Assembly (NCBI RefSeq): GCF_026151205.1
Contig: NC_087077.1
Coordinates: forward strand, 7,679,983-7,743,982
DNA length: 64,000 nt
Origin: Bolinopsis microptera
Taxonomy: Eukaryota; Ctenophora; Tentaculata; Lobata; Bolinopsidae
Direction of reading: 5' to 3'
Shown: positions 4,130 to 60,452 of the stretch, one piece after another
How positions within the stretch are numbered: the first letter of the stretch is position 1
Layout: the number at the start of each line of letters is the position of its first letter
Position numbers and translations under genes: made by a program
The notes under the pieces: generated by a model
Told to the model about the DNA's origin: nothing
Database searches by the model: none
The model's input: only the letters and a program-made list of their open reading frames with translations

Positions 4130-16985
<12,856 letters not shown>

Positions 16986-18305: not shown

Positions 18306-20170
18306 TTCCCACATTTGTTGGTTGAGAATGCTCAACATAACATACATGATGCTTGACTGCTTTATTGACCCGGACAGGCACCGGGGGCAGACATCCCAAC
18401 ACCAGTGCGTTGGGACATAGTGTTGGTCTGCTTCAGGACGTGTTAGATCCTAGAGAAGCCGCCATCCCCTCTGGCCTCTACTGCTTTAGCTCAGCGGCAG
18501 CATGAGCCCTGGTTTCCTGCCACATTGGTACCTCTGAAAGTACAGAAAAGTGGTGGATTTCGGGGTCCAGGATCCTCCCTCTTTAATCTTTACGGTGGTG
18601 TTATTTCTCTGAGATGTTTGCAGAGTCTTTATTTTATAATCTTTCTAGTTTAGTTGGATAAATCCTGGAGAGCATCATTTTGACCCCAAAGAAATTCGAC
18701 TCTTCTAATGAATGCTTTTTGTGTGCTGCTTTTTGTTAACACTTCATCTAGATAGGAATGTGAGTCAGCCCCACCCAGCTCTTCTTTTAGCTGCAAGTAA
18801 CTGGTGTCTTGCACCTCCAGACACAATAGGAGCTGGTGTACAGGAGAATCATCGAAGCTGTTGCAGAAACGACAGGCCTCACCACTGTCACCACCCATGA
18901 TCTTTTGGATATTCGCAAAGAGTGGTGAGCTGCCGTGAATGTAGTCCATTATTCGGCTGTCCAGATTTTTACTCGTGTTGTGCCCGAATAAGAAGTTGTT
19001 TTTGTCTAGGAGCAGCCCACTGTTTTTGATCTTTGTGATCACACCAAGTATCTTGGTCTCCTTGTTGTTACTGACAGTTCTGCATTGCAGATTTGTTTCG
19101 ATGCTGTCAATCCAGATCTTATTTTTGTAGCTCATTATGTCTGCCTGAGTGTAATAGGCCAGATCCTTGAAATGTTGCTGCGTTAGGTCTATCATTCTGG
19201 TTCCGTGTGACTTATTTTCTTTCCAAAGGAAGTACTTTTTCAGTGACATTGTTAAGATATGAAAGCTTGGTATTCTGCTTTCGTCAACTTGGTAGAGTGT
19301 AGCTGAGAGGTTGTCACCTTGTGTGAGTACTTTGCACATGAATTTAACCGAAAGAGCTTCGAGTTGCACATCCAGTGGTGGGAGGTGGAGAGCAAGTTCG
19401 GTTAATTCCCTTTGTGGATTCAGGACTGATCCAGATATTTTTAGAATGATTTTATTCCAGAAGCTTTTAAATTGATTGAGACACTTGTGAAGCCAATTAG
19501 GTGCTGCATAGAACAGTTTAGTGAGGACCAATGTTTTAAGGAGGAGAGTGAGGCTGTAAACGTTTAGACCGTAGTTGCGGTTAGTTGATTTTGTTATTAA
19601 TCCCCACTTTCTTTTGCATTCTTTAAGTTTTTGAGACGCATGTTTCTTGAAATTGAGGTCTTCATCTACTATTACCCCAAGGACCTTTGTGCTTTGGACG
19701 TAGTTGATGCTTTTCCCATTAATACATAATTCTGCAGGTTTCTGTTCTTCAGTATAAGCTGCAGTTTTCAAGATTATGGCCTCCGTTTTATTCGTATCAC
19801 AGTTCACTACTAGCTTGTTCTTGATGCACCACTTGCTGAGGTGGTCACAAACCATCTGCATTTTTTCATGGCATCCGGAGATGTTCTCGAAGGAAATCAT
19901 AAGTGTACCGTCATCAGCAAATTTGTAGCAGCTTAGATATCTTTTTACTTCTTCCGGGGTGTTGTGTGTCATGTCTGCTATGTATAGGATGAAGAGGAGA
20001 GGTGAGAGTACAGCCCCCTGAAGGTTAGCCAGCATTCTGAAAAGATATCGCGTTGTTGATCTCCCTCCAATGAAACCTTCTTGATCTTCATCAAGAGTTC
20101 CTTCAATGTCCAGGAAGAGTCTCAATCTTTTATCTAGCACTCTTTCACAAATTACAAGGCAAAAACTCAA
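18306..20170 (-). mobile_element. 5'-truncated LINE (RT only, internally deleted)
   Basis: A minus-strand non-LTR fragment made of the 506-aa frame at 20170-18650 plus a probable 3' UTR to about 18306, with an AATAAA (TTTATT on the + strand near 18360). The 5' part, including the endonuclease, is missing; upstream sequence is interrupted by hAT MITE copy B. Confidence 0.8.
18650..20170 (-). CDS. Reverse transcriptase fragment with C-terminal CCHC-like finger
   Basis: 506 aa. RT finger/palm motifs are visible: GFIGGRSTT, then QGAVLSPLLFILYIADM (motif B region), then CYKFADDGTLM (catalytic ADD) and TKVLGVIVDEDLNF. The C-terminus has a zinc-finger-like CRFCNSFDDSPVHQLLLC. Between GRSTTRYLFRMLANL and QGAVLSP the stretch that should carry motif A (the first catalytic aspartate, usually DLSKAFD-like) is absent, although the frame is kept. 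The product cannot be an active RT. It has no host role that I can infer. Confidence 0.85.
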   Translation of the reverse strand: MSFCLVICERVLDKRLRLFLDIEGTLDEDQEGFIGGRSTTRYLFRMLANLQGAVLSPLLFILYIADMTHNTPEEVKRYLSCYKFADDGTLMISFENISGCHEKMQMVCDHLSKWCIKNKLVVNCDTNKTEAIILKTAAYTEEQKPAELCINGKSINYVQSTKVLGVIVDEDLNFKKHASQKLKECKRKWGLITKSTNRNYGLNVYSLTLLLKTLVLTKLFYAAPNWLHKCLNQFKSFWNKIILKISGSVLNPQRELTELALHLPPLDVQLEALSVKFMCKVLTQGDNLSATLYQVDESRIPSFHILTMSLKKYFLWKENKSHGTRMIDLTQQHFKDLAYYTQADIMSYKNKIWIDSIETNLQCRTVSNNKETKILGVITKIKNSGLLLDKNNFLFGHNTSKNLDSRIMDYIHGSSPLFANIQKIMGGDSGEACRFCNSFDDSPVHQLLLCLEVQDTSYLQLKEELGGADSHSYLDEVLTKSSTQKAFIRRVEFLWGQNDALQDLSN

Positions 20171-20206
20171 TGGATGGTTACCGTAATGGGTGCCACATGC
20201 CTAGCA

Positions 20207-20542
20207 CAGTGGCGTAACTTTGCCTGTTGGCGCCCCCCGCTCAGTGACGAAAAGTGCCCCCCCCCCCTAAAATTTTTTGTGTCCCTAAAAAAAAAAAAAA
20301 AATAAAGGTCGGGTACTTTTTTTCTCGCCCCCCCCCTCCCCTACAGCTTTTTGCACCCCCCTGAAGCAAAAAAGGGTACCCCAAATAATTTTTCGCGTCC
20401 ACCGAACGCTAAATTGGACAGGAAAATACACAAATAAGGCGTTTTTTTTTAGTGAAAGGGCCAAAAATTCAGGAAAATTGCGCCCCCCTTATACGGCGCC
20501 CCCTGCACAGCGGGGTCTGCGGGGCCCTAAGTTACGCCACTG
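20207..20542. mobile_element. hAT-type MITE, copy B, with 8-bp TSD
   Basis: CAGTGGCGTAAC and GTTACGCCACTG termini, 336 bp, internal G/C homopolymer runs, no transposase. Both flanks are GCCTAGCA (20199-20206 and 20543-20550). Confidence 0.9.
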
Positions 20543-20731
20543 GCCTAGCATGAAATATTTACCTACTTACTTGCACTTGTGTAGGTCTGTAGAAGCATTA
20601 GAATCGGGCGTTGCCTGCCACAGGCTATCCCGAATTTAGAAGCTTGCTTTCATCAATTTATTCAATTAATTATATTGTTTAGGTTGGACGTTTACCATTA
20701 CATGTTTGTTCACATTGCTTATTGTGTTCTG

Positions 20732-20775
20732 CCATGGCCTGATCAGCATAGTTTTCTATGCTGATCAGGCCATGG
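20732..20775. repeat. Perfect 20-bp palindrome with TTTT loop
   Basis: CCATGGCCTGATCAGCATAG, then TTTT, then its exact reverse complement. It is isolated in non-coding sequence and not followed by a run typical of a Pol III terminator. Confidence 0.9.
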
Positions 20776-21564
20776 TGAAATTTAGTTTAAACAAAAGTTT
20801 TCATACTGTGGCCAGTGACTTATTTTAGTAAGACAGGATAAGTTTTCTATATTCTTAGGAATAGGCAATTCTAGGAGGTAGGTATGAGGGATCAAAACGC
20901 TTCTAGGGCTAACAATAGCTGATAGCTGGACAAGAAAAGTGAGTTATGTGACTCCCGTTAGTAAAACAAAGATTTTTGGTGAAGCAAAGATTTTAGTTTA
21001 TATTACTCACTACTTACTACTACATAGTAAGTTCAAATATTCATACTTCAATAACAAATATACTATACCAGAGAAGTCCGATCTAGCAGTTGCCAATCAA
21101 AACACAATTCATTTACAGTGATCTGTTTGAGTAGACACCGATGAACTAATAAGTTTTGGTGTCATCAGTCATAACATAATAACTATTATGGATGAAATGA
21201 AATGAAATGAAATGAGGTATTTATATCCCGCTCATATGATTAACCAACAACACAAGGAAGGTGGTTAACCATGTCAGAGCGGCTGACTGTGAGTGATGTG
21301 AGCAAAAGTGTAAAAAGTGAACTAAAGTATAACTCAGCATAAGGCAAAGAAAAAATTAAAACAACTTTTATTGTAAACCACACTAAACTAAATAGAAGCA
21401 GAAACCATACAGTACATGTAGGTATAATAAAGGTTAGTACAGTGACATAATCAATCAAGAAAGAATCAGATCCAAGTAAGTAAGAGATCAAGGCATAAAA
21501 TGGAGTGCGGTAAAAAATAAAAGCCAATGTGTCTTGCAAAGTGAAGACAATGGAAAGAAAAACA

Positions 21565-23604
21565 TCAGAACTGATTATATAAATGATTCTTTAACATTCG
21601 CTTGAAACAGTTGGTATCAGTGATACATCTCAACATCAGGGGAAGAGAGTTCCATGCAATCGGTGCATGGCTTGAGAAACGTCTGTCATCAATTTTGGAT
21701 CTTTTATTCTTTGGTACCTTGAGCATGAGATGGTCATCAGGTCTCTTCGACCTGGTCATGGTCATGGTGTTTGAGAGTTCTTTATCCACTACATCCACAT
21801 CCAGTAGTGCTTTGAGGTAATCAGGTGCAGTACCGTGAACTGATTTGTGGGTTAAAAGACAAACTTTAAAGAAGATTCGTTGGTCTATAGGGAGTATGTG
21901 GGCCTTCTTATAGAAGGGAACCAAGTCCGTGGTCTTCTCTTCTATGTTATAGATGAAACGAACTGCCCCATTAAGGGTTCATCTAAGTTTGTTCAATCTG
22001 GTCTTGGGTAGATTCATGTAAAGAGAATTACAGTAGTCTAATTTAGATATGACCAGTTGTTTCACCAGCATCAATTTAATGCCTTCATCAAGGTAACGAC
22101 CAATGGTTCTTAGATTCATCATTGTCCAGCTGCATTTCCTTTTGACATTATTGATCTGTCTTTCCATATTTAGAGTTTCATCAAATTTGACACCCAGACT
22201 CTTCCAGCTGTCTCCTTTACACTCCGTAGGCAGAATTTCAGTGCTTCCAAATTGCAGTCTGACACTGAGTTCACACTTTTTTAGAACATGGCTCTTTCCT
22301 AACACCAGTAGTTCTGTCTTTGTTTCGTTCAGTTTCATGTAGTTGTTCACCATCCATGCTTTTATCTCTGCAAGACATTTGTTTGTTCTGTCTTGGACAT
22401 CAATGAACTGTACCACACGGTTTGGTTTAAATGAGATGTACAGTTGAGAATCATCTGCATAGAGCTGTATATCAAGACCATATTTGGTCGCAATTTTCTG
22501 GAGAGCTTTGATATAAAGGATGAAAAGAATAGGCCCCAAGAGTGATCCCTGGGGAACTCCAAACAGCAGCTCCAAGAAAGATGAAAGAGTATCATCAATC
22601 TTAACACAGAAGTGTCTTTTCTCAAGGTAGGACTTTATCCATTGCAGTGCACTTCCAGTAATTCCATAGTCCTTCATAAGCTTTTCCAATAAGACTGTGT
22701 GGTCAATGGTATCAAATGCTGCACTTAAGTCGAGAAGTACAACTATAACAACATTCCCAGCTTCAATTTCTTTGTTTAGATCATCACACATTCTAACAAG
22801 TAATGTTTCACAGCTATGATTAGGGCGATATCCAGATTGGACTTTTGAGTAAAGGCTATGGTTCGTTAGATGGACATTAAGCTGGTTTAGTACAATTCTC
22901 TCTAGGATCTTAGAGAAGGCAGAAAGGTTAGACACTGGTCGATAGTTACTGAGAATATCAACATCAGCATTTTCCTTCTTCAAAGTCGGTTTGATGACTG
23001 CTTTCTTCATATCTGAGGGGAAGACTCCAGTCTTCAAGGATGAGTTCAATACATGAAGTAAAAAGGGTGTTAGTTCATCGACACAGTTTTTTAAGAGAAA
23101 TGCTGGGATCGGATCCAAGCAGCAGAACTTGTTGGACATCTTTGATACCAGGTCTTTGAGTTCATCAGCTGTTATCTCAGAGAAATTATCAAAGATGCAG
23201 TCTTTATCAAGAACAGGATCTTTGTCTTTATCTTTGTCTTTGTCTTTGTCTTTGTCTTTGTCTTTGTCTTTGTCTTTGTATTTGTCTTTGTCTTTGTCTT
23301 TGTCTTTGTTTACATCTTTGTCTTTGTCTTTGTTTACATCTTTGTCTTTGTCTTTGCTTTTGTCTTTGCTTTTGTCTTTGTCTTTGTCTTTGTCTTTGTC
23401 TTTGTCTTTGTCTTTGTCTTTGTCTTTGTCTTTGTCTTTGTCTTTGTTTTTGTCTTTGTCTTTTCCTTCCTTCTCAATGGCTTGTCTGATGGTTTTTTTT
23501 TCAGCGAAGAAATCTTTGAAATCTTCTGACAGTTTCACAGGATCCTTGTAGTTTGGAAGGTTTTGGGTGTCATTTCCTAAAAGCCTGTTGACTTTTTTGT
23601 ACAA
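21565..23604 (-). CDS. LINE ORF2, reverse transcriptase part, interrupted by one TGA
   Basis: The frame runs from 23604 to a TGA at 21979-21981 and continues in the same frame to 21565. After a Lys-Asp tract (about residues 45-130) come the RT motifs: YRPVSNLSAFSKILERIVL, GYRPNHSCETLL, LLDLSAAFDTIDH (catalytic Asp), GVPQGSLLGPILFILY, QLYADDSQLYISF (catalytic ADD) and KSLGVKFDETLNM. The C-terminal domain has the common L2/CR1 ending AWNSLPLMLR and CFKRMLKNHLY. The polymerase copies element RNA at the nicked target site. The TGA makes this copy non-functional. Confidence 0.9.
23221..23462. repeat. Hexanucleotide (GTCTTT)n inside the LINE coding frame
   Basis: About 240 bp of GTCTTT-type hexamers. 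On the coding (-) strand this is AAAGAC, giving a Lys-Asp dipeptide tract between the endonuclease and RT domains. Because the unit is 6 bp it does not shift the frame. Confidence 0.95.
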
Positions 23605-24683
23605 CGCTTTAGTACCCCTGAAGAGGACCTAAGAGAGGTTTTGTGGTGAGCGCATCTTTTGACAAACTCTAGTCGGGAAAACTCATCTCTTAGCTTAACA
23701 TAATCCGATATCAGGTACTCAGATCTTGCACTGTCTATATCATCAACTTTATCTTTTCTCCACGCACGTTCAGCAGTTCTTCTCTTTCGCCTGAGAATAC
23801 GAAGTTCCAGGTCTAACCAAGGCATTGGCTTCTTAGTAATCTTCTTTTTTATGTAAGGACAGTGTTTATCCATTAACTGAGTGAGCACGGTGTTGTAAAG
23901 GACAACAGCATCATTCGGAGACATGTCTTTAGGGAAGTTTGTCAGTTTTGAAATTAAAATATCTTCTTTAAACTGTTCTGTATCAATTAAATTAAAGTTT
24001 CTGTAGTTCATGAATTTTGCGTCTTCTTTGGTCTTTGTCTTGATGTCTGCATCGAAGAGGACAAGGAAGTGGTCAGATTTGGTTCTAGAGGGACAGATTT
24101 CGAATGAAGTCAGTTTTTCCTTGAAGGATCGGTTAGTCACAACAAGATCTAGGGTTCCACCTTGGTCATGGGTTGGTTCAAGGGGAACGTGTTGGTATAG
24201 ATCATACTCCTCCAGGAGTTGGTAGAGCTTCTTTGGGTAGTGTTCTTCAGGCTTTTCCATGTGAAAGTTGAAATCTCCAGCAATGATGGGGAAGCCAGGT
24301 TTGACTGTGAGGTCTTTAAGGTAGTCTTCGAATTCTTCTAAAAAGGCACACTCCGTGTACCGAGCCTTCTTGGTATAAGGAGGCCGATATAAGTTCACAA
24401 GTCTCACAATATCTTGTTGAGATTGTAGCAGTGATTCCATCACTTGGAAGGATTTGTACTTCATGACCTTACTATTACACTTTAACTGGAGCACATTACG
24501 AAATAGCATAGCTATACCTCCTCCTCCTCTGTGTTTTCTTGGATCCGAGAGTATATTCCAACCAAGGTCTTTGATCTCCTTTATCTTAGCTGTGTTTCCA
24601 TCACGAAAGAAGGTTTCTTGTACAAAACAGATGTCACAATCAACTTCTTGAAGATGCTCTAACACTCCGACTGTTTTGTTCAC
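23577..24683 (-). CDS. LINE ORF2, APE-type endonuclease part
   Basis: The frame is open past 24683, and homology begins slightly upstream with RIGTFNVRSL (endonuclease motif with the metal-binding Asn). Then CFVQETFF (catalytic Glu), GGGIAMLFRN, VNLYRPPY, IIAGDFNFHMEK (Asp/Asn motif), TLDLVVTNRS and KSDHFLVLFD (catalytic His). This nuclease nicks target DNA to prime reverse transcription. The frame is lost near 23605-23640, where the RT frame takes over, so a one-base frameshift separates the two domains. The start overlaps the end of ORF1. Confidence 0.87.
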   Translation of the reverse strand: MNKTVGVLEHLQEVDCDICFVQETFFRDGNTAKIKEIKDLGWNILSDPRKHRGGGGIAMLFRNVLQLKCNSKVMKYKSFQVMESLLQSQQDIVRLVNLYRPPYTKKARYTECAFLEEFEDYLKDLTVKPGFPIIAGDFNFHMEKPEEHYPKKLYQLLEEYDLYQHVPLEPTHDQGGTLDLVVTNRSFKEKLTSFEICPSRTKSDHFLVLFDADIKTKTKEDAKFMNYRNFNLIDTEQFKEDILISKLTNFPKDMSPNDAVVLYNTVLTQLMDKHCPYIKKKITKKPMPWLDLELRILRRKRRTAERAWRKDKVDDIDSARSEYLISDYVKLRDEFSRLEFVKRCAHHKTSLRSSSGVLKRCTKKSTGF

Positions 24684-25772: not shown

Positions 25773-26453
25773 GTGAATAAAAAATATTCTGGAGCCACGC
25801 ATATTTTCGTTGATTTACACTATACTATGAAAATCGAGCGCTCAAACAAAATGTGTTTTCGGTGCTACTGTATCATGTTGCGAAACCTTTTACGTGTATA
25901 CAAGTGTTGCTTCCTTCTAGTTTTAAAGATGTTGAAAACACATTGCAGCAGAAGACGATTAGCGCATTTTTTAAAAAGCCTCTACAACCATCTAGTTTCA
26001 AAAATTGCCCAGATACAATCTATTAATCCGGGTGTGCATGTATATGTTTGTCCAACAATTCCTTCTAAACGTGCTGATTTAAATAGAAAGCTTATATACT
26101 TTAACAGTTTGATTCGATGTAGGCTGCTCCCGTCCAATTTTGGTGTCAGTTATGTGGATGGATTTGATGAGTTCTGTGATAGGGATGGTCTCCTTGACCG
26201 CCCTCTCTCTCGCGACCTCAACAAATACCAAAAACCGGACTTCCTTCACCTCAACTGGAGGGGACTAGCAAAGTTAGGTCAATTTATTCGTAACACTGTT
26301 CTTCTCAGGATTAACGGTGGTATCGACAAAAGGAAGAGGAGGTCCACAAGGGTAGACGATAGATCCTACAGGGATGCGACTGCTGGAAGAGAAACTGGTC
26401 CTGTTGTTCCTGCTGCTGCTAGTCAGGGTCACGTGGATGGTTACCAACCATGA
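25773..26453 (+). CDS. LINE ORF1, SGNH/GDSL-esterase-like C-terminal part
   Basis: The frame begins after a TAA without a convincing ATG. The conserved part starts about residue 80 (INPGVHVYVCPTIPSKRADL) and ends in PDFLHLNWRGLAKLGQFI, which resembles the Asp-x-x-His block of SGNH esterases found in CR1-type ORF1 proteins. The N-terminal catalytic Ser block is not seen, so the 5' part is missing or decayed. The TGA stop at 26451-26453 overlaps the ORF2 ATG. Confidence 0.65.
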   Translation: MNKKYSGATHIFVDLHYTMKIERSNKMCFRCYCIMLRNLLRVYKCCFLLVLKMLKTHCSRRRLAHFLKSLYNHLVSKIAQIQSINPGVHVYVCPTIPSKRADLNRKLIYFNSLIRCRLLPSNFGVSYVDGFDEFCDRDGLLDRPLSRDLNKYQKPDFLHLNWRGLAKLGQFIRNTVLLRINGGIDKRKRRSTRVDDRSYRDATAGRETGPVVPAAASQGHVDGYQP

Positions 26454-29400
26454 CTCCCCTCATTAAGGAGGTATGTCCTGTCTGTTCTAAGAACATAGTC
26501 ATCGGCCAAACAATAGTTGAATGTTTTCACTGTGACTGCATAATGCACCATAAATGCTATCGCAAATCAAATCCAAATAGCCAATCTAATGAGTTTTACT
26601 GTACTCGTTGTATCCATTTAGACAAGGTTAAATACAACCCATTTAAACTACTCACTGACAATGACGACGACGACAACAACCTAGACGAATACACAACCAA
26701 AATCTCAAATACTTTAAATGATTGTAACTCATACACTGCATCTGACCTTACAAATATTCTCTGCAACCAAGTAAAGAAACAATCATCTATTCTCTTTCAA
26801 AATATTGATGGAAATAAATCAAATTTTGACAACCTTGCCATTGAAACCTGTAGGTACAAAACAAAATTCTCCGTAATAGCCCTAGCTGAAACCAACACTG
26901 GAAAAGAATTAAGCAATCTATTTCAGCTCGACGGTTATAATAGTTACTATCAGGACACAGCACCTTACAAACAAAAGGGCACTGGAGTAGCCCTTTATGT
27001 TGACGATAAATTAAATGCTACTGTAATTGAGAATATATCACAAGTCACAGAACATCTAGAAATACTTGTCTTATCATTAAGTAACGAAGATCAACCTGTT
27101 AATGTAGGTGTTTTGTATCGTCCACCAAGTGGCTGTATTTCCCAAGCTCTAGTTGAACTTTCTAACCTTCTTGATCACATGCCGAAGTTTAGTTATCTAG
27201 CTGGAGACTTTAATATCGATCTTCATGATAAAGATAACAAAAATGTTCAAAAATATGAAGAAATATTATTCAGTAAAGGATTTTGTCCGTTAATATCTAT
27301 TGTTACCCACGAAAAACCAGGCTGTAAAGCATCCTGCATAGATAACATTATTACTAACGATATTGAGAATGTGATTACTTCAGGCACCCTAAAAGAACGA
27401 ATAACTCATCACTCACCTATTTTTAACACATTTAACTGGAATGTTGAAGTCAACTCTGAAAAAACTTCTTTTAAACAATATTACGACTTCTGTCAATCAA
27501 ATGTTAACGGCTTCCTAGTGGATCTTGAAGATGAGCTTAAAACTAAAACAATCCACAACTTTACTGAATTCCATGACACTTACAAAAACTGCGTCGAAAA
27601 ATCGTTTAAACTAGAGACCCCGAAAACCTCTAAGAGAACTGTTCAGGTTAACCCTTGGATAACTCCCGGTCTCATTTGCTCAATTAATAATCAGCATAAA
27701 CTGTACGAAAATTGGGTTGAGATAAGAAATAGAAAATGTAAACTCGGGGAAACTGATAACAAGGGCGGCATTTGCCAGTGCCCTGAATGCTCACTAAAAC
27801 GTAGTCGCTACCTTATCTACAAAGAATACAGAAAAGTCCTAAAGAAAACACGTCAAACTGTGAAAACAGAATACTTCTCTGGTAAATTTGCTGAAAATAG
27901 CGGTGATAGTAAAAAGACCTGGGAACTAATAAATCGTATAAGAGGTAAACGGCGGCGTGAAATAAAGCCGCTGTTCACCATAGACAACGTTAAGATAACA
28001 AATAGAAGGATCATAGCAAACGAATTCAATAAATATTTTGTATCATTAGCCTCTGACCTAAATACCGCTTACAATGATCTTGGACAAATTAACATAAACA
28101 GTATACCTAGTTTCTATGATTATCTACCGCTTTCAAACACTTCCAGCATTTACATGCATGACTGCACAACAGACGAGGTTAGCAAAATCATATCTGAACT
28201 TAAAAATGGCAAGGCAAGTGACATACCGATTCATGTAATTAAGCAGTCCTCTAAAATAGTTACTCCTTTACTCACTGTACTGTATAACGAATGTATGAAA
28301 GATGGCATATTTCCAGATGACCTTAAAGTTGGAAGGATTAGTCCCATTTACAAGAAAGATAACCAGGAACTCCTTGAAAACTATAGACCTGTATCAACGC
28401 TAGCTGTGTTTGGTAAAATATTTGAAAAGATTATATTCAATAGATTATACAGCTTCTTTCATTCACAGAACTCCTTATATGAAAACCAGTACGGATTCCG
28501 TAAAAATCACTCGACCAGTTATGCCCTAAATTACTCAGTGAACCACGTAGAATCTTGCCTCAAGAAAAAACAACACGTTCTTGGAATATTTATTGATCTT
28601 AGTAAAGCCTTTGATACAATATCACATGAAAAGTTACTGCATAAGTTAGAAAATTATGGAATCCGTGGAAATGCAAATAACCTTATAGCAAGTTACCTGT
28701 CGAACAGATACCAGTATGTCTCGGTATTAGGTGAAGAATCCGAGAAACTTCCAGTAGTCTATGGAGTGCCGCAGGGGAGCTGTCTTGGTCCCTTACTTTT
28801 TATTATTTATATTAATGACATCCGTAACTCATCAATTATAGGAAAGTTTATACTATTTGCCGACGACACTAACATATTTATAGAAGACACATGTGTCAAA
28901 AGACTATACGAAAAAGGAAATGAAGTTCTATCATTTGTGTACAAGTATATGAAACTAAACTTATTACATATTAACATTAAGAAATGTTGTTTTATTCATT
29001 TTAAACCCTCACGGGCCAAAGAGGAAGTAGAAAATGACGAGAACATACTAACTTTAAATAATGTAGTTATTAAAAGAGTTCAAGAAGCTAAATTTCTAGG
29101 CGTTATTATTGACGACCAACTTAACTGGAAATCACATACGCAGTCACTTAACTCAAAACTTAAATGCGAAGTAGGAAAGCTGTGCAGAATACGACACATT
29201 GTCCCAAAGCAGTATTATAAGGATTTATATCATACTCTATTTGAATCACATTTAGGATTTGGAATATCTGTGTGGGGTGGTATTAGTAATAACCGACTTG
29301 AACCTATCTTTAAAACACAGAAAAAGTGTATAAGAATTCTGTTTGGGGAAAGAGAAGCTTACCTAGAGAAGTTTAAAACGTGTGCCCGAACACGACCTGT

Positions 29401-29803
29401 TGATAAGCAAAGACTGGGGGTGGACTTTTACCAAAAAGAACACTCCAAGCCCTTGTTTAAAACCCACAGGTTGTTGACGGTCCACAATCTGTACAAGTAC
29501 ACTTGTCTCTTAGAACTATTCAAAATTAATAAGTTAGAGGAACCATTATCACTGTACTCATCATTTAACAGGTCACCACGACGAGAGGATTATTTCATTA
29601 CATCACAACCATCCTCACAATTCATCTACCAATCATCCTACATGTGGAACAGCTGTCGACAAACATCAAGTAAGATAAGTTTTAATACTCCGACAAACGG
29701 GTTTAAGAATATATTGAAAATTGCCTTACGAGAATTGCAATTCAAGCATGATACACTTGATTGGTGTGAGCTTAATTTTGCCACAAATGAGCTCAAGTTC
29801 TGA
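26450..29803 (+). CDS. LINE ORF2: PHD finger, APE endonuclease, reverse transcriptase (1117 aa)
   Basis: The start is ATG at 26450, which shares ATGA with the ORF1 stop. Residues 9-54 form a Cys4-His-Cys3 PHD-type finger (CPVC, CFHC, HHKC, CTRC). The endonuclease covers about residues 110-330: ALAETNT with the catalytic Glu near 147, VLYRPPS, LAGDFNIDL near 251 and THHSPI. The RT spans about 580-860: YRPVSTLAVFGKIFEKIIF, GFRKNHST, IFIDLSKAFDTISH near 713, YGVPQGSCLGPLLFIIYIND, LFADDTN near 803 and KFLGVIIDDQL. There are no stops or frameshifts, so the enzyme could be active. The PHD finger may bind histone tails and guide integration; that is inference. Confidence 0.93.
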   Translation: MTPLIKEVCPVCSKNIVIGQTIVECFHCDCIMHHKCYRKSNPNSQSNEFYCTRCIHLDKVKYNPFKLLTDNDDDDNNLDEYTTKISNTLNDCNSYTASDLTNILCNQVKKQSSILFQNIDGNKSNFDNLAIETCRYKTKFSVIALAETNTGKELSNLFQLDGYNSYYQDTAPYKQKGTGVALYVDDKLNATVIENISQVTEHLEILVLSLSNEDQPVNVGVLYRPPSGCISQALVELSNLLDHMPKFSYLAGDFNIDLHDKDNKNVQKYEEILFSKGFCPLISIVTHEKPGCKASCIDNIITNDIENVITSGTLKERITHHSPIFNTFNWNVEVNSEKTSFKQYYDFCQSNVNGFLVDLEDELKTKTIHNFTEFHDTYKNCVEKSFKLETPKTSKRTVQVNPWITPGLICSINNQHKLYENWVEIRNRKCKLGETDNKGGICQCPECSLKRSRYLIYKEYRKVLKKTRQTVKTEYFSGKFAENSGDSKKTWELINRIRGKRRREIKPLFTIDNVKITNRRIIANEFNKYFVSLASDLNTAYNDLGQININSIPSFYDYLPLSNTSSIYMHDCTTDEVSKIISELKNGKASDIPIHVIKQSSKIVTPLLTVLYNECMKDGIFPDDLKVGRISPIYKKDNQELLENYRPVSTLAVFGKIFEKIIFNRLYSFFHSQNSLYENQYGFRKNHSTSYALNYSVNHVESCLKKKQHVLGIFIDLSKAFDTISHEKLLHKLENYGIRGNANNLIASYLSNRYQYVSVLGEESEKLPVVYGVPQGSCLGPLLFIIYINDIRNSSIIGKFILFADDTNIFIEDTCVKRLYEKGNEVLSFVYKYMKLNLLHINIKKCCFIHFKPSRAKEEVENDENILTLNNVVIKRVQEAKFLGVIIDDQLNWKSHTQSLNSKLKCEVGKLCRIRHIVPKQYYKDLYHTLFESHLGFGISVWGGISNNRLEPIFKTQKKCIRILFGEREAYLEKFKTCARTRPVDKQRLGVDFYQKEHSKPLFKTHRLLTVHNLYKYTCLLELFKINKLEEPLSLYSSFNRSPRREDYFITSQPSSQFIYQSSYMWNSCRQTSSKISFNTPTNGFKNILKIALRELQFKHDTLDWCELNFATNELKF

Positions 29804-34502: not shown

Positions 34503-36904
34503 CAATCTCAATATTACTTTGTAGGTGGTTCTGATAGGTTGTTTGTTTCGCAAGCTTTCATGTAACTTGTGTCAATCATCTTTTGATGGTATGGTGAATA
34601 TCTTTCGATTAATTGCTGTATCTTTTTTGTTTATTTATGTATTTATTAGAAGGGTGAGAATCCCTGCCACGTTTTTGGTCAGTTTCGCCGGGGCTCATGT
34701 CTTTCCTCGAGAGAGCATTAGTGTCTACAGAAAAACTGACAAATCCTAGCGAAGTCCAATCCGAACCACATCTTCCATTAGAGGTGGTGCTGGGTCAGCT
34801 GGTTACTGAACGGATTGGCCTGGAGAATGGCATAGTCCTGTTACTCTCAAGTTAACCATAGAGGGGAACAGGCGCTGTTCGCTCACGGCTGGTTCTTGGA
34901 GCCAACACCCTCAGCCCCTCAGAAGTGGGAGCACTGTCGTTGGTGGCTCACCCAGATAACAGACAGTGTCTCTCCTTTTTTCTTCTTGGACTTGCATTGT
35001 TGCTGGTGAGTCAGCCAGTAGCAATGCAGCATCTCACTCACTCAATCACCTCAGCAGTTCGGTCCCTTTTCTGTTTGATTACTAGTCTCACCTGGTTCTT
35101 GACCTGTCGCCCTCAGACCTACAGAGGTGGGTGCACTGTCGGTGGCCTGTCACCCAGGTTGTCGGTGGTATCTCTCCCTCTGCCTCCCCTTTGGACATGC
35201 ATTGTTGCTGGTGAGTCAGCTGGCAGCAGTGTACCATACTATTGCGTGTTTACTAATCCCCTCTTAGCTTCCAGGCTAAACTAAAATTATAAACCAACAG
35301 AAGCAGGATAGAAGCAAGAAATCATCAGTAGCCCCTCAACTTAACGAAGACTGATATCAACCGCTCTGGTACAAGCAACTCTGATAAAGTACGACACTGC
35401 TGCTTCTCTGGGAAGTCAGCACCAACAGAAATGGGGACACTCTCTGATATGAGTGCTGGAATTCTCAGCCGTTTTACTCTACAGGCTAAGTTTCTTGTTA
35501 TAATTCTATTGCTCTGTTCTTTCATTTGTATTCTGTCTCACTCTACTGCATATTGTAGATCGTCAGCATTCATAGAACCAGGGTCTCAGTTACAGTCCTT
35601 CAGTTTGTTGACTAGACACACTTTTTGCATCATCTTTCGGTTTTTGACGGCGTTTAGAACACATCTTGTTTTCTCGATCGTTACTTGCCTCCGTATTGGC
35701 TGCTAAACTAAAATTATAAACTAACATTCGTTCCACCCCCTTGTGTGTATACTAACACCCCTAGATTCCCAGGAACAGGCATAAATATCTACAGAAATCA
35801 AAGCCAAACAGACAGACAGCTACTCAGCCACAATGCAGGACAACAGATACTGCTCTGAACCAAGGATAAGTCTGATGGATACAGCTCACGTCTCCCTAGA
35901 CATTCGCACAGATTACAAGAATGCCAACATCAGACATCACGTCTCTTATTAAGACAAAGCTCAACTCTCTATCCAAGTTCCTGAAATCAGAGTTGTCTAA
36001 CTGAGATTCGCAGTCAGACATGCATTATACCCCCCTCGACCAACCCATCTACTAATCCGTGTCTACAGGCAAGAAATTGATCTCGTCATTTGTAATATAA
36101 TATGAAATATTATATACCTATTGAAATTCTCATCCTCCACATCATACAAAAAAGAACGGCCCATGGCCATACACCACATATCAAAGAGAAAGGCCTCCGG
36201 CCAGACATATCAGACCTAACATGATCTATTTTCCTTAAAAGCCCATGTTTATATAAAGTTTTAGCGTGTAAAATTGATTCACTTTACTTACTTGTTTATA
36301 AATTTTACCTCGAACCATGCTTTCACAGAATTAAAATATTACCACACGACAGGGCGACTGTTTTCCAAAACTGGTTACATTCTTCCCTCAAGGCGCAGCT
36401 CCTACACCTGGTAAATTCCACTCTAATAGCACAACCTCTCAAACAGACTCACCGAAGTAATCTTCAGCCATCAAATGCGAAGGGACTATAGCACCGCTGT
36501 CAAACCTGATCATGTTACAAGGCATGACTTTTCTGCCACTACTTCATCATTATAGATTAGTGATTACTTAGTGTGTAGATGAAACGATATGAGTGTAGCA
36601 CACACTGGCTTATCAATGAATGATTGATTCATCCTATCAGCGTTATCTTGATTCGAATTGAGATTGCTATATTAAATTTTTCCTTTATTTTACGTAACGC
36701 GCGAACGCCATTTGAGCACAGTATGTGCTAATAGTCTCGCTGTCAATCCTTTAATACGTTTTGCGCGCTAGCTACTCTGGTAGCGCGCATGGCGGGTAAT
36801 TTTATTATCTATTGTGTCAACTTTTTATTCAGTTTTATTCATTTAAACGATGTTAATCATTTGAAACGACTTTACTAGAATTTGTCAACGAAGAAGAACT
36901 CTAA
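34503..36904. other. Non-coding region with diverged internal duplications
   Basis: Two diverged copies of a segment containing TGCATTGTTGCTGGTGAGTC at about 34920-35040 and 35130-35240. GCTAAACTAAAATTATAAAC occurs near 35275 and 35703. It looks like old transposon UTR sequence. Open frames of up to 119 codons here lack any protein signature. Confidence 0.5.
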
Positions 36905-37126
36905 ATTGTTACCACAGCAACCATTCAATGTTGCCATAGAAACTACACACTCTTAACATAGCAACCACACACGGTTACCGTAGCAACTCCAAATCACTAC
37001 CTAGCAACTAAACACTGCTACCATAATAACTACATACTGATACTATAGCAACTACACACTGTTACCATAGCAACTACACACTGATACCATAGCAACTACA
37101 CACTGTTACCATGGCTACTACACACT
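36905..37126. repeat. 22-bp minisatellite, left block
   Basis: Degenerate units of ACCATAGCAACTACACACTG type, best conserved from about 37040. The array is cut by the LINE at 37127-39469 and resumes at 39470. Confidence 0.85.
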
Positions 37127-39469
37127 TTTTTTTTTTTTTTTTTTTTTTTAAGAGAGGCTGGGCCAAGATAGCCCACGAGAGGATAGCATTGAGATGCTCT
37201 GCCTACCTCTGGGTTGTGGCAACCTTGGGGAAGGTTGCCGGTGAAATCAGAGTGATTGGTGGAGGATGGTGTAAGATGATATATGAGTCAAAATGATACG
37301 CTTAAATGCCAGCTGGGTTTGGAAAAGTAAAACGAGACGAGACAGCATATGAGCTAATACTTTAAGTCACCCCGGTCTGATCCAGCTCTTCCGGCACAAT
37401 TAAGCGTTTGGTGCGGTTTGCGAAATTGACAATTGTGGTGATGTGTTGGTTGTCGAATATGTCATTGACAGAGAGGTAGTAGTCCTGGAAATATTGACCT
37501 CTAATTTGGGCAATAGCTGGACACTGTCCAAGGAAGTGTGAGACAGTTTCCTCTCCATCGCCGCACATAGGACAAGCACTGGTGTTTGATTTGCAAATGG
37601 TGTGAAGGTGTTTGTTTAAGCCGCAGTGACCCGTGATGAGGTGAACTGCAGTTCTGTAATCTTGTCTGTTTTTGCTGAGTGTAGTGTTGAGGTTTTTGAT
37701 GATTTTGGCATGCTTGTGGCCGAGTGTCAGTTTGGTGTGTCTGGGACCGTCAGTTAACCAAGTTTCCTGATTCAGTCTGTTGACTTTGTTGTCGATTTGA
37801 CGCTTGATGTAGGATTGTGGAATTGGACACTTCAAAGTGGATTCACTGGTTGTACCAAGCTTGGCCAGCTCATCTGCTTTTTCGTTCCCCCACAATCCGA
37901 TGTGTGCTGCAATCCATCGTATCTCTAGCGTGTTGTTGGATCCGAGTGCATTAAGAGAGTCGTAACAGTCTCTTGTAGTTCTACTTCGCGTTGAAAGCGC
38001 AGAGATAGCTTGTATAGATGAGAGACTGTCAGACCATATGATGATATGTGTGTTGGTATAGGTAGAGAGATATTTGCAAGCTTCAATGATGGCGGTGAGC
38101 TCTGTTTGGTAAACAGTGCAATAATCAGGGAGCTTGAATGATCTTTCTTCAAGGGTGGTGTTATTGTTGTCAGTTGTGATGATATAGCCAGCCCCGCATC
38201 CTGAGTCTGTGAGTGACCCGTCAGTGTAGCAGGTGATCGTTTCACTGGTAATGTTGTCGATGGTGTTTTGAAGTGAATTTCTATATTCAGTGGTATCGGC
38301 TCCAGGAGTTGTGACGGTGAAGTGCCGTCCCAGCATCATGGTTGGTGTTGTTAGGTCTCTCGTTGCTCTAGGTGGGATAATGAGGTCTGCCATGAATTGT
38401 TTGTTGATAGTGGTATGATTTTTGATAGTTCCCTTCCTGAAAGCGATAGTTTCAAGAGTGAGGCTGCCATAAGCTTGTAGCCTGGCCGCACCCTTTGCTG
38501 CTTCGCCTTGCAGGAACAGTATGATGTCAGAAGTGTCGGTGAGGTGATTCAATGCGATAAAAGGTGTGCTTGGCATGGCACCAGACATCATTCTGAGTGC
38601 CAATGCCTGAACACGTTTGAGTTTCTTCGCGTTATAGTCCGTTTGAGTGGCCCTGATCCATATACTACAGCAGTAGGATAGGATTGGACGGATGACAGCC
38701 GTGTACATCCATTTGCATGTTTTGGGGCTCATACCCCATGTGGGGCCGACAGCTCTTCGACATTGCATGAGGGATGCCGTGGCTTTTTTGGTGGTGTTGA
38801 TGATATGTTCATTGAAGTTGAGTTTGCTGTCCAAGGTCACTCCTAGAAATTTAGCAGACTTGGAAAGACCTATAATGTTGTTGCCAACTGTTATAATAGG
38901 TCTTAGAGTCCACTTACTATTCCAGGTAAACATGACTATCTGAGTTTTAAGGGCGCTAATAGATAGCTCTTTGGTTCTGCACCAATTTTCTATCGTTTTA
39001 ATAGTTTTGCATGTTCGGTCCCAGATGATGTCTAAATCATCCCCTTCCGCTAGAGACAACAGATCATCCGCAAAGGCTTGCAGGTAACCCGGGATGTCTT
39101 TTGCGGTAAAGGAAAGGAGATCGTCGACTACCAGGTTCCAGAGAAAAGGAGAGAGAATGCCTCCTTGGGGGCAACCTCGCCTGATCCGTACCCTTCTCGA
39201 CTTATCCTTATGATTTAGTGTGATGAATCGATTGGTTACCATGTTGATGATCCACTGTGCTGTAGCCAAGTCCACTTTCGTAGCCTTGACTGCTTCAGAG
39301 ATAGCCTTGAACGAGACATTATCGAAGGCGCCCTCTATATCTAGAAAGACACCTAGGACATATCCTTTCTTGGCTATTCTGCGCTCAATGGTGTGAGTAA
39401 CTTTATGAAGTGCCGCTTCTGTGGAGCAGCCCTTCTTAAAGCCGAATTGTCGTTTGTTGATATCATTAG
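37127..39469 (-). mobile_element. RNase H-bearing LINE (I/R1-like), 5'-truncated, inserted in a minisatellite
   Basis: A minus-strand element with a poly(A) tail (T run at about 37127-37149). Its 5' end breaks inside the RT domain at about 39469. The 9-bp CTACACACT occurs at 37118-37126 and 39470-39478, consistent with a target duplication made in the 22-bp array. RNase H plus a C-terminal CCHC finger points to the I/R1 side of the non-LTR tree. Confidence 0.88.
37362..39468 (-). CDS. RT - RNase H - zinc finger polyprotein fragment
   Basis: The open frame reads from the truncated 5' end to a stop at 37362, about 701 codons. Order: GFKKGCSTEAAL, VFLDIEGAFDN (motif A Asp), GCPQGGILSPFLWNLVVDD, LQAFADDLLSL (catalytic ADD), KFLGVTLDSKLNF, then RNase H with CYTDGSLTDSGCGAGY, QTELTAIIEA, IIWSDSLSSIQA and AHIGLWGNEKADELAK (the D-E-D-D catalytic set). 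It ends with a CPMCGDGEETVSHFLGQC finger. The frame has no stop, so the insertion is probably fairly young despite the truncation. Confidence 0.92.
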
Positions 39470-39550
39470 CTACACACTGTTACCATAGCAACTACACACT
39501 GTTACCATAGCAACTACACACTGTTACCATAGTAACCACACACCGTTACC
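39470..39550. repeat. 22-bp minisatellite, right block
   Basis: About four units of CTACACACTGTTACCATAGC type, continuing the array found left of the inserted LINE. Confidence 0.9.
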
Positions 39551-39555
39551 AGGAA

Positions 39556-39963
39556 CGAGAGCGAGGGTCGACAAGGGGCTATTGCGATGCAATCTGGACG
39601 AGAGTCCAGGCTGGCTCCCTAAGTTCCAACCTCTCGGTACTGCAAACGATACATTTTCTAATCCTGATCACCCATATCCAAGTTACAGTTATACAATAAA
39701 ATTACAATCTCATCGTACTCACATCTCTTGAGTTAAGCGCAAAGCGTCACTATAGGACCTTCGCGATGCGAACCAGACACATAGTCTGGACTGGTACCTC
39801 AGACGCTAACGTGAAACTTACAGAGTATATAACAACTTACTCTAACGTGAAACTTACAGAGTATATAGGATATAACAACTTACTCGGGCGTAAGGAGTCG
39901 ATACGGAGCTATTGCGATGCAATCCAGGCAAGTGTCTGGACTGGCTCCTAAAACTCCAAACGC
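39556..39963 (+). other. Three diverged copies of a conserved three-way-junction fold
   Basis: Copies are at 39556-39636, 39743-39807 and 39888-39963. Each has an outer stem (CGAGAG/CTCTCG; AGCGTC/GACGCT; GCGT/ACGC with GGAGT/ACTCC) and an inner stem (GGGGC/GCTCC; AGGACC/GGTACCT; GGAGC/GCTCC). Next is a hairpin with GAT triloop (ATTGC/GCAAT or TTCGC/GCGAA). Directly stacked on it is a second 6-bp hairpin (CTGGAC/GTCCAG; CCAGAC/GTCTGG; CCAGGC/GTCTGG), followed by an ACTG-like joint. Stem sequences differ between copies while pairing is kept. I do not recognise the class. The strand is chosen by its position before A15, not by proof of transcription. Confidence 0.6.
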
Positions 39964-40005
39964 TCGGGCGAGCGGCATGACAACTCTGATAAAAAAAAAA
40001 AAAAA

Positions 40006-40701
40006 CTTGAACCTCTGTTCAAAGCACAGAAAATGTGTGCCCGCATAATGTTTGGAGATAAAGAAGCATACTTGGATAAATTTAAAACTAGTGCACGATG
40101 CAGACCCTACGGGGAGCAAATCCTGGGCAAGGAATTCTACAGAAAGGAGCATACAAAACCCCTCTTCAACACTCATGAAATCATGAATGTGCATAATCTG
40201 TACTTCTACCATTGTATTAATGACATCTTCAAGGTCTTGAAATATAGAACCCCTATATCACTATACTCCCTCTTTGAAACATCTGGCAGACTTGGCAAAG
40301 AGACACTAATTCTCACACCTAAACCATCAGACAGCTACATATACAGAGCAGGGACAATATGGAATACAGTACGACAAAATCTCATGCTAACTACATTCAC
40401 CTGTTATAAGCCCAATCACCTCAAATCATCCATAAGAATCACCATCACTCACACTCAAAAGGAAGGAGAACCAAATGACTGGAACTTAGCTTTAAACAGC
40501 GTTCGACAAAATTCAAAAACTTTAAAATTGACCTTGCCTAGATTACTTAAGCTTGAAAAAGCGGTAATATCTCAGCAAAATATAACTTGCAGCAGCCCCA
40601 TACCTTGTCATGAACATAATATCGAAACTACCTCTGTGATCACATCTTTCTCTGGGTGCAAAATGAATATTATATATATAATAGGTTTATTAGTTTTATA
40701 G
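40006..40701 (+). pseudogene. 5'-truncated LINE fragment (C-terminal domain)
   Basis: Begins abruptly after an A15 run with LEPLFKAQKMCARIMFGDKE, matching LEPIFKTQKKCIRILFGERE of the LINE ORF2 at 26450-29803. It continues through FYRKEHTKPLFNTH, IYRAGTIWNTVRQN and further. Only the region after the RT palm is present, so it is a dead 3' fragment of a related but distinct family member. Confidence 0.88.
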
Positions 40702-41230
40702 AAATTTAAAAGTTCTATAGAAATTTATTATATAAGGATTATAAACATTTTATTTGTGTGTTTTGTGTTATGCATTTTTATACCGATTTTAGAAGAGATT
40801 TTTATAGAATGTTAGAAGTGCAGTAGGGTCAGTTTCAGACGAATTAAGCATAAATGACATCACTGCCATGTCTGAAGTGGTTTGTAAATGGGCCATTATA
40901 AGCCCCAAGCGTTTTGGTCCCTCATTCCTGCCACTCAGCATTGCCTACTGTAAATTAGAAATTTTTCTAAGATAATAGAGAAACTGACCTTGTCTCACTA
41001 AATTCAACCACTTACCATAATAAAAATACTAACAACCAAATAAAGTTTTTAAATAATTATATACAATCACCAAAAATATTTCCTCAAGTTTACTTCTAGC
41101 TAACTAGTTCGTGGTTTAAGCTCTTATTTTATTTATGATTAAAGGAATGTAAAATAAAACTTTTCGTTTCATTGGTCATTGATTCTTTACAAATAATTAT
41201 CTTACCAAACATACAGTACGCAAAACGAAC
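40702..41230. other. Non-coding AT-rich spacer
   Basis: Probably includes the 3' UTR of the LINE fragment. No other feature is seen. Confidence 0.4.
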
Positions 41231-41560
41231 GTAGATTTCAATTCTTATATAGCGAAATAGCCGAAGTGCGTGGAGGCCGGGGAGAGGGGCTAGCTCCGGC
41301 GCGGCGCGCGCGCCGGGATAGCACCCCAACACGTCAACGCGCAGCAGAGTAGTGGGGTCGGCCACACTACCGAATACACGAGAAGCCAACCCGGGATTTA
41401 TTACCCGCACGGCTATATTATCATGCGCAGTTGAAACCTGGGGGCTCGCCGACCAGGTTCACCGGGTGGAAACTGGAGGCATATATGACTCCCATATCTG
41501 AAAGCAGGTTGGGGGCACTACGGAAAGCTTAGAAGCTCCCGTCACCTACTAACTAACTAC
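41231..41560. other. GC/CpG-rich island of unknown nature
   Basis: A sharp rise in GC (GGCGCGGCGCGCGCGCCGGG near 41300) within AT-rich surroundings. It is followed by a non-coding tract ending CCCGTCACCTACTAAC. It could be the promoter or 5' UTR of a retroelement. No adjacent coding frame supports a host gene. Confidence 0.4.
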
Positions 41561-41896
41561 TAACTATGTATTTATTATAATCATGTGTCTGCTGAAAATC
41601 TTTAAACTTGTGATTAATAGATTTTACAAATGTTTTACATACATTTTTCTCACTTTTTATTATTTGAAAATTCAATTAATTATTATATATATAAATCAAG
41701 CGTTACATTTCAGCCATGCAAAATTACAATGACATATTTTGATATACTAATTGATAAATGGTACTGCAATATAAGTTGCTTAATGTTTGGCCGGATGGCA
41801 ACTAACTAAAAAATAAAAATAAACTTGATTACATAATAATTAATTCGGCTGAACCAACACATAGCTAGAGCCACATTAATGTGGGGCCCTCTAGCT

Positions 41897-58056: not shown

Positions 58057-58560
58057 CTGCGAAAGGGGCTATTAATTAATTGACTGTTCAAAGTGCTTAA
58101 ATTATCAATTATTTAGTCGGCATTGAACAAATTCTTTGCTTTTAACGGCTCGACTCACGTCCGAATCTATATCCTAATTTTATCATGGGAAATATCTGAG
58201 TATGCTTGTGTAAGAGCCGGCACGATCTAGTGACAGAATATCTAGATACCGTAGCACTGGTTTAGATATTGTAATTACCATCACTGGCCACACCCATATT
58301 GACGCCATCAGGCATGTAACTTTGAACTTATTACAACACTACAAATCTATTATATCTATTGAGGGAGGGACCTTCGACATTGTCCATCAAACAATAAGGA
58401 TCACTTGGTAAGCTCTGTAATGGAGGCTGATATAAAAGATATATAACGTGGCAAAATAATAACTGAGTTACAAATTAAATTAAATTAGGCAATTGATTGA
58501 TAAAGGTTTTGAGTTCTTTTCACATCTTCTGCTCAGCTGTTTATATAACGTCCTATGTCT
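58057..58560 (-). other. Probable intron of the SLC35E1-like gene
   Basis: Follows the acceptor CCCCTTTCGCAG upstream of the 58056 exon. No further exon is recognised between it and the satellite. Confidence 0.5.
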
Positions 58561-58563
58561 GAA

Positions 58564-60452
58564 GTGAGGGTAGTAATGTGAGGGTACTGAAGTGAGGGTA
58601 GCAATGTGAGGGTAGCAATGTGAGGGTAGCAATGTGAGGGTACTGAAGTGAGGGTAACAATGTGAGGGTACTGAAGTGAGGGTAGCAATGTGAGGGTAGC
58701 AATGTGAGGGTAGCAATGTGAGGGTACTGAAGTGAGGGTAACAATGTGAGGGTACTGAAGTGAGGGTAGCAATGTGAGGGTAGCAATGTGAGGGTACTGA
58801 AGTGAGGGTACTGAAGTGAGGGTACTGAAGTGAGGGTAACAATGTGAGGGTACTGAAGTGAGGGTAGCAATGTGAGGGTACTGAAGTGAGGGTACTGAAG
58901 TGAGGGTAACAATGTGAGGGTACTGAAGTGAGGGTACTGAAGTGAGGGTACTGAATTGAGGGTAACAATGTGAGGGTACTGAAGTGAGGGTAGCAATGTG
59001 AGGGTACTGAAGTGAGGGTACTGAAGTGAGGGTAACAATGTGAGGGTACTGAAGTGAGGGTACTGAAGTGAGGGTACTGAAGTGAGGGTAACAATGTGAG
59101 GGTACTGAAGTGAGGGTACTGAAGTGAGGGTACTGAAGTGAGGGTAACAATGTGAGGGTAGCAATGTGAGGGTAGCAATGTGAGGGTACTGAAGTGAGGG
59201 TAACAATGTGAGGGTACTGAAGTGAGGGTAGCAATGTGAGGGTAGCAATGTGAGGGTAGCAATGTGAGGGTACTGAAGTGAGGGTAACAATGTGAGGGTA
59301 CTGAAGTGAGGGTAGCAATGTGAGGGTAGCAATGTGAGGGTAGCAATGTGAGGGTACTGAAGTGAGGGTAACAATGTGAGGGTACTGAAGTGAGGGTAGC
59401 AATGTGAGGGTAGCAATGTGAGGGTAGCAATGTGAGGGTACTGAAGTGAGGGTAACAATGTGAGGGTACTGAAGTGAGGGTAGCAATGTGAGGGTAGCAA
59501 TGTGAGGGTACTGAAGTGAGGGTACTGAAGTGAGGGTACTGAAGTGAGGGTAACAATGTGAGGGTACTGAAGTGAGGGTAGCAATGTGAGGGTACTGAAG
59601 TGAGGGTACTGAAGTGAGGGTAACAATGTGAGGGTACTGAAGTGAGGGTACTGAAGTGAGGGTACTGAAGTGAGGGTAACAATGTGAGGGTACTGAAGTG
59701 AGGATAGCAATGTGAGGGTACTGAAGTGAGGGTACTGAAGTGAGGGTAACAATGTGAGGGTACTGAAGTGAGGGTACTGAAGTGAGGGTACTGAAGTGAG
59801 GGTAACAATGTGAGGGTACTGAAGTGAGGGTACTGAAGTGAGGGTACTGAAGTGAGGGTAACAATGTGAGGGTACTGAAGTGAGGGTAGCAATGTGAGGG
59901 TACTGAAGTGAGGGTACTGAAGTGAGGGTAACAATGTGAGGGTACTGAAGTGAGGGTAGCAATGTGAGGGTACTGAAGTGAGGGTACTGAAGTGAGGGTA
60001 ACAATGTGAGGGTACTGAAGTGAGGGTACTGAAGTGAGGGTACTGAAGTGAGGGTAACAATGTGAGGGTACTGAAGTGAGGGTACTGAAGTGAGGGTACT
60101 GAAGTGAGGGTAACAATGTGAAGGTACTGAAGTGAGGATAGCAATGTGAGGGTACTGAAGTGAGGGTACTGAAGTGAGGGTAGCAATGTGAGGGTACTGA
60201 AGTGAGGGTACTGAAGTGAGGGTACTGAAGTGAGGGTAACAATGTGAGGGTACTGAAGTGAGGGTACTGAAGTGAGGGTACTGAAGTGAGGGTACTGAAG
60301 TGAGGGTAACAATGTGAGGGTACTGAAGTGAGGGTAGCAATGTGAGGGTACTGAAGTGAGGGTAGCAATGTGAGGGTACTGAAGTGAGGGTACTGAAGTG
60401 AGGGTAGCAATGTGAGGGTACTGAAGTGAGGGTACTGAAGTGAGGGTAACAA
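58564..60452. repeat. 14-bp satellite array with higher-order structure
   Basis: About 135 tandem units of TGAGGGTA followed by one of three endings: CTGAAG, GCAATG or ACAATG. Each ACAATG unit closes a block of mostly four, five or six units. Since 14 is not a multiple of 3 and the - strand lacks stops in all phases, three overlapping frames of about 600 codons appear; these are not genes. Confidence 0.97.

Follow-up and report, generated by a model that had tools for sequence, protein, structure and literature searches.

Three segments of the window, a 64-kb stretch of the Bolinopsis microptera genome that was analysed as a whole, fold in one and the same way, and the locus raises the question of what these repeated folds are and why they have been kept. 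Here we surveyed the folds, the element that carries them and their relatives elsewhere in the genome. The three folds are structures in the 3′ UTR of a LINE lineage with an EN-RT-RNase H ORF2, and not a free-standing ribozyme or a satellite.

Each unit has a length of 86-101 nt and is built of a long imperfect outer stem (P1) capped by a three-way junction (Table 1). The junction runs in the order of inner stem P2, hairpin P3 (with a GAU triloop in RNA), abutting hairpin P4, a joint of three bases and the second strand of P2; its compact head, about 33 nt long, comprises two hairpins that directly abut, the first with a GAY triloop, and a short joint. The spacing from triloop to triloop along copies 1-2-3 is 179 and 151. 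All stems named in the original prediction of a shared fold were found on the + strand, namely the inner stems GGGGC/GCTCC (copy 1), AGGACC/GGTACCT (copy 2) and GGAGC/GCTCC (copy 3), the triloop hairpins ATTGC-GAT-GCAAT (copies 1 and 3) and TTCGC-GAT-GCGAA (copy 2), and the outer stems CGAGAG/CTCTCG and AGCGTC/GACGCT. The span first given for them, 39556..39963, is too short, for the outer stems extend to 39550 and 39968. The GAGA (GNRA) loop noted in the second hairpin of copy 1 is present, but elsewhere it occurs only in L012, the other copies having AAGA and an older one TAGA. Whole units were compared with dinucleotide shuffles and gave z = -2.24 (B1), -4.11 (B2) and -5.45 (B3). Scanning the window in both directions with a junction descriptor returned 12 hits of at least 30, with the three copies on top at 41.4, 41.4 and 38.5 and the next-best hits at 37.3 and 35.6. 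We regard the structure and location of the folds as practically certain.

Table 1. Positions in the window of the three fold units and of the non-autonomous element that hosts them
Feature	Position	Strand	Details
Target site duplication, left copy	34636..34648		13 bp, TATGTATTTATTA
Non-autonomous element, 5′ part	34649..37125	+	5′ module (about the first 435 bp, common to a second family) and 22-bp tandem array (36907-37125)
Later insertion	37126..39469	-	LINE piece (RT and RNase H domains; poly-T 37126-37149) within the 22-bp array; approximate borders
Element resumes	39470..39990	+	Remaining 22-bp array and, carrying the three folds, the beginning of the LINE-type 3′ UTR
Fold unit 1 (B1)	39550..39642	+	P1 CAG/CTG and CGAGAG/CTCTCG; head core 39575-39618; triloop GAT at 39586
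Fold unit 2 (B2)	39725..39825	+	Outer stem with AGCGTC/GACGCT; head core 39754-39799; triloop GAT at 39765; single bulged A in the inner stem
Fold unit 3 (B3)	39883..39968	+	Outer stem CTCGGGCGT/ACGCTCGGG and GGAGT/ACTCC; head core 39905-39948; triloop GAT at 39916
Second later insertion	39991..41179	+	Not in other element copies; ORF 40033-40701 without Pfam match; approximate borders
Element, last part	41180..41564	+	Remaining 3′ UTR, AGGTTGGGGGCACTAC (41506-41521), terminal hairpin region and (CTAACTA)n tail
Target site duplication, right copy	41565..41577		13 bp

The extent of the hosting element was defined by comparing the window with twelve stretches of 9.5-10 kb from the same genome; the 5′ end lies at 34649 and the tail ends near 41564, with two later insertions in between. 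Across the genome that contains the window (264.65 Mb in 232 contigs, match counts being lower bounds), at least 29 places match the 446-bp fold array, and at least 13 of these span query 9-446 or more at 83-100% identity. Undisturbed copies (L033-L036) measure about 3.34-3.37 kb and have no frame longer than 163 aa. Element copies are inserted at varied sites, their flanking duplications vary in sequence and length (13 bp in the window, 7-14 bp in L030 and L033-L036) and their 3′ tail is (CTAACTA)n; the variable target duplications and the short-repeat tail therefore indicate target-primed insertion of the LINE type. With these properties and a UTR that it has in common with an EN/RT-coding LINE, the window element is a derivative of a LINE (non-LTR retrotransposon). 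The 5′ module (34649-35083) is common to at least 40 places at 96-100% identity (117 candidates, 40 scored), including a second family of 2.17 kb. A part of about 150 bp in the 5′ region of the element is repeated at 74% (34882-35032 and 35087-35237), and the first 1210 bp of a further locus, L044 (C5:20752800-20758300), match the window-type element at 97%, with a 594-aa open frame further on.

The coding relatives were reached through the second family. Its first 435 bp are as in the window element (97%), it has a length of 2.17 kb, a (CATA)n end and a 13-bp duplication, and it carries a single diverged copy of the fold, having lost both ORFs and kept the head. A pattern made from two heads of this type matched 28 places of the genome at up to 3 mismatches (reversed-pattern control 0), and in two of them, L055 and L056, the head belongs to the 3′ UTR of an open-frame LINE, here called LINE-A. 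These two copies are 99.9% identical across 5336 bp; ORF1 has 308 aa, the ORF2 open frame has 1342 aa, of which a 1289-aa part matches EN, RT and RNase H, and two folds lie downstream of the ORF2 end. The C-terminus of LINE-A ORF2 (370 aa) gave 111 genome matches, among them LINE-B at about 60% identity, and LINE-B lies directly upstream of three-fold arrays at C1, C2 and C6. In the C2 copy (L040) ORF2 is broken into two frames, its stop is at 7200-7202 and the triloops then follow at 7263, 7444 and 7559. No relative of ORF2 was found in viral contigs.

The window-type element and LINE-B have 801 bp in common at 96.9%, from the base after the ORF2 stop through to the end, which is the whole 3′ UTR. 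Since the folds follow the ORF2 stop and the 3′ UTRs match, the folds are 3′ UTR structures of the LINE lineage and the window holds a non-autonomous derivative. The LINE match of the window-type element covers the 3′ UTR only, and no coding copy with its 5′ part was identified. The 2.17-kb family lacks the ORFs and matches LINE-A in the region that precedes ORF1 (84%) and a LINE-A relative in the 3′ UTR (91%), so that LINE sequences from the two ends are joined as in SIDEs (short internally deleted elements). The number of folds is particular to each subfamily, with three in LINE-B and the window type, two in LINE-A and one in the 2.17-kb derivative; one genome thus offers a natural series of one, two or three covarying folds, in open-frame LINEs as well as in ORF-less derivatives. 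The 22-bp tandem array of the window element, TGTTACCATAGCAACTACACAC, is split by the minus-strand LINE insertion (36907-37125 and 39470-39551). The first bases of the 801-bp match are one unit of this repeat, and because in LINE-B that unit comes immediately after the ORF2 stop codon, expansion of the beginning of the LINE-B 3′ UTR may have produced the array. We take its units to resemble RFX X-box half-site pairs.

The distribution of the head was profiled over the whole genome. A single-strand head pattern gave 73 matches against 1 for the reversed control, and every matched string is a known form, heads that depart from the pattern (such as L018) being left out of this count. For the 3′ ends of the A type, found by a separate pattern, a same-strand head precedes the end by 266-425 bp in 15 of 15 cases. 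Among 21 ends of the B type, a patterned head stands within 900 bp in 12, lies 1.6-4.9 kb away in 3 and is absent from 6; the head of the window lies farther than 900 bp from its 3′ end because of the second insertion. Four of the six headless ends (L046, L051, L052 and L053) matched in their last 65-230 bp only, and another, L054, looks like a chance match. The GAY-triloop head was not found in the 3′ regions of 14 other LINEs (L066-L079, some of the same family, with ORF2 C-termini 24-34% identical); weaker descriptor hits with other loops (31.3-33.3) occur in 4 of the 14, and L069 has GCGATGC without the fold. Within this genome the head is restricted to one LINE lineage.

Selection on the fold was judged from covariation, which was measured by pair counts against shuffled and slid-partner controls in two sets. 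The first is an alignment of 30 distinct cores with a folding score of at least 27, in which broken copies are under-represented because of this threshold. The second is a set of eight types hand-picked against over-counting of relatives (B1, B2, B3, the old B form, L018, the 2.17-kb form, A1 and A2); L022 and L024, whose inner stem pairs poorly in the case of L024, were omitted from it and retained among the 30 cores. In the 30 cores, 89.8% of the cells are paired, both-sided changes occur in 12 of 17 pairs and the covariation score is 0.460, where shuffles gave 0.250 (sd 0.013) and slid partners no more than 0.148. In the eight types the score is 0.561, against 0.269 (sd 0.033) and at most 0.191 respectively, and both-sided changed cells number 25 as compared with 8.5 in shuffles. 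The number of further pair types is not above shuffles, 347 of 500 (30 cores) and 104 of 500 (eight types) being at least as high. RNAalifold on the 30 cores returned 12 pairs, every one among the 17 given. The outer stem, which lies outside the eight-type alignment, is better than shuffled flanks in all eight types (z -2.5 to -6.0, with 0 to 4 of 300 shuffles equally good per type). When B copies were taken by BLAST without the folding filter, 858 of 868 pairs stood in 52 copies, a count for which near-full-length core matches were required and overlapping loci were merged only roughly.

These results strongly support the earlier reading of the paired changes as selection on the structure of a retroposon RNA, which was to fall if there were no more genomic copies or no covariation; at least 29 array matches were found, and covariation is well above the shuffled and slid controls. 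That the fold is a degenerate minisatellite with pairing of no meaning has next to no probability. Many copies are near-identical, so that the cells of the pair counts are not independent, and a clear tandem duplication, the 22-bp array, lies nearby; against this, both-sided changes extend across eight types and two lineages, slid controls are far lower and stems without common sequence still pair. Some features of the fold are less regular: mismatches or a bulge interrupt P2 in certain copies, the folding of A1 by itself is just modestly ahead of its shuffles (z -1.78) and the wobble-based strand signal is weak (37 G.T against 23 A.C cells), so the sense orientation of the fold is taken from the LINE's own strand. 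A covariance model of four B-type cores recovered B copies and one diverged L018 copy (22.3 bits) and, with E up to 10 allowed, missed the heads of A type in L042, L043 and L045; the link between A and B heads therefore rests on architecture, on GCGAYGC and on position in related LINEs. In LINE-A the two heads are near-copies, whereas P1 and P2 differ and yet pair, e.g. GAATTTTGG/CCAAAATTC and CAGCCC/GGGCTG (A2), which suggests that the head carries specificity and the stem serves as a scaffold.

Self-cleavage had been offered as one explanation of such a fold. Hammerhead-bearing retrozymes and Penelope-like elements likewise have a three-way junction, tandem copies and a retroelement context, and tandem units acting as a self-cleaving ribozyme, in a retrozyme-like element that processes its own RNA, would recall them. 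The units have no CTGATGA/GAAA core and no Rfam hammerhead match, and the coding relative here is an EN-RT-RNase H LINE. Rfam 15 at gathering thresholds gave 0 matches for the window and for L040, L042, L064 and L065; permissive searches, which covered 39440-40060, L046, L052, L055, L058 and L060, gave only one chance match (E 7.6) in one run and none at E up to 5 in another, and no ribozyme family was matched at either level. There is no internal-loop core common to both lineages: the near-invariant unpaired positions between them are essentially the GAY triloop, and in LINE-A no more than one or two bases are left of the P1-P2 internal loop. The TCGA/TCAC that directly precedes the inner stem, near which self-cleavage was to be looked for, is missing from the LINE-A lineage and is therefore not a conserved cleavage motif. 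As the number of units also varies, a ribozyme is very improbable. An HDV-like fold was rejected by eye against the HDV topology because there is no strand between the two hairpins, and at the 5′ end of the element an HDV-like ribozyme had neither a convincing P1 by eye nor an Rfam match. No tRNA was found in the window in a search under the bacterial setting.

The place of the heads with respect to the tail bears on their function. In PMC4176376, stringent LINEs are described as starting reverse transcription from a terminal hairpin next to a short-repeat tail; such a hairpin can keep its fold when its stem changes, and its specificity lies in the loop. A terminal stem-loop followed by short repeats, as in tails of this stringent type, is also present here; hairpins are predicted at the end of the folded families, not always the same one. 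The heads might be part of a 3′ UTR surface read by the LINE reverse transcriptase, that is, an extension of the stringent tail signal. Related stringent LINEs are reported to read 3′ stem-loops via ORF2 (PMC4176376), and the steady position of the head in all 15 A-type ends would agree with this. It is nevertheless improbable, for in uninterrupted copies the heads precede the 3′ end motif by about 270-710 bp, the terminal hairpin is a structure apart from them, and short 5′-truncated pieces that have the 3′ end but no head have inserted (L046-L053), a finding that truncation on insertion explains equally well.

We somewhat favour another function, in which the folds would be a modular tag in the LINE 3′ UTR to which a protein of the element itself would bind, so as to assemble the RNP or select the template. 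An RNA hairpin that a protein reads would be expected to show what is seen here, a triloop that hardly varies and hairpins that abut, on a stem free to change, and the occurrence of the head in only one LINE lineage points to a protein encoded by the element; the fold pattern, the lineage restriction and the separate tail signal together favour a multivalent tag. Of the protein-bound DNA hairpin first suggested, the protein binding is thus favoured, but the folds probably act as RNA and not as DNA. In the sense RNA, the long imperfect stem of each unit would present the compact head, which would be bound by ORF1p or by the RNA-binding region of ORF2p; several tags per RNA may together give avidity and would mark the RNA for RNP assembly or for choice as template, and the separate terminal hairpin with its short-repeat tail would be the start of target-primed reverse transcription. 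We infer the binder, because ORF1p has no recognised domain and its AlphaFold model (two input sequences) had a pLDDT of 39 and was discarded as unusable. Heads are kept in both ORF-less derivatives, the window type and the 2.17-kb family, where they may have been retained merely along with the 3′ UTR.

The heads could instead serve a host factor for nuclear export, stability or translation of an intronless LINE RNA, in the manner of constitutive transport elements, the Rev response element or exonuclease-resistant RNAs, and would then be no tag for LINE proteins. Their place between stop codon and tail, their repetition in one RNA and their Y-shaped fold fit such an element, and the need for it would be as great in ORF-less derivatives as in the LINE. 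We hold this to be rather unlikely, since a general element might occur in other elements or genes and the head is found in one LINE lineage only within this genome; no Rfam export, stability or xrRNA family was matched either.

The tag read by the element's own protein also touches the old question of how LINE proteins pick their own RNA (cis-preference) and how parasitic derivatives qualify. It is possible, and we put it forward tentatively, that the tag is a packaging signal of the LINE RNA, separate from the tail and multiply bound by ORF1p or ORF2p, which admits only tagged RNAs to the RNP. Such a signal would give cis-preference a molecular basis, would work like a viral packaging signal and would open the RNP to the LINE itself and to parasites that keep its 3′ UTR. 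Viral packaging signals, the Rev response element and the constitutive transport element are repeated structured tags of genomic RNA read by protein; the likeness would be one of working, with no sequence relationship, and the tags here are in a LINE. The mechanism of cis-preference was called unknown for L1 in 2014 (PMC4176376).

Structured LINE 3′ UTRs and internally deleted derivatives are already known (PMC4176376; PMC3414825). The tails of ZfL2-1, ZfL2-2 and UnaL2, as described in the former, are alike in being structured RNA in a LINE 3′ UTR that is common to non-autonomous partners; the heads here differ in that they are three-way junctions, number one to three in each RNA, lie hundreds of bases before the end and are additional to the terminal hairpin and short-repeat tail. 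R2 and its R2/R1 SIDEs, as the latter presents them, likewise join LINE 5′ and 3′ ends with the coding part gone. In distinction from these, no 5′ ribozyme was found here by Rfam or by eye, and the elements have 3.3 kb and 2.2 kb and stand at varied sites, not in rDNA as far as seen. The literature, judged by title and abstract opening, yielded no such fold in a LINE 3′ UTR; as far as this search reaches (Repbase lying outside it), a repeated three-way-junction tag upstream of the tail is new, and it provides a defined, structured RNA element without an entry in Rfam 15.

Other features were also recorded in the window. A LINE at 25773-29803 has ORFs of 226 aa and 1117 aa (RT, endonuclease-like and a weak zinc-finger match), and LINE frames in pieces with EN and RT domains lie on the minus strand at 18650-24683. 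A 28-bp tandem array of about 67 copies extends over 58559-60448, with a 665-aa open frame running through the repeats on the minus strand, and a (CA)n run at 9980-10659 has 340 perfect copies.
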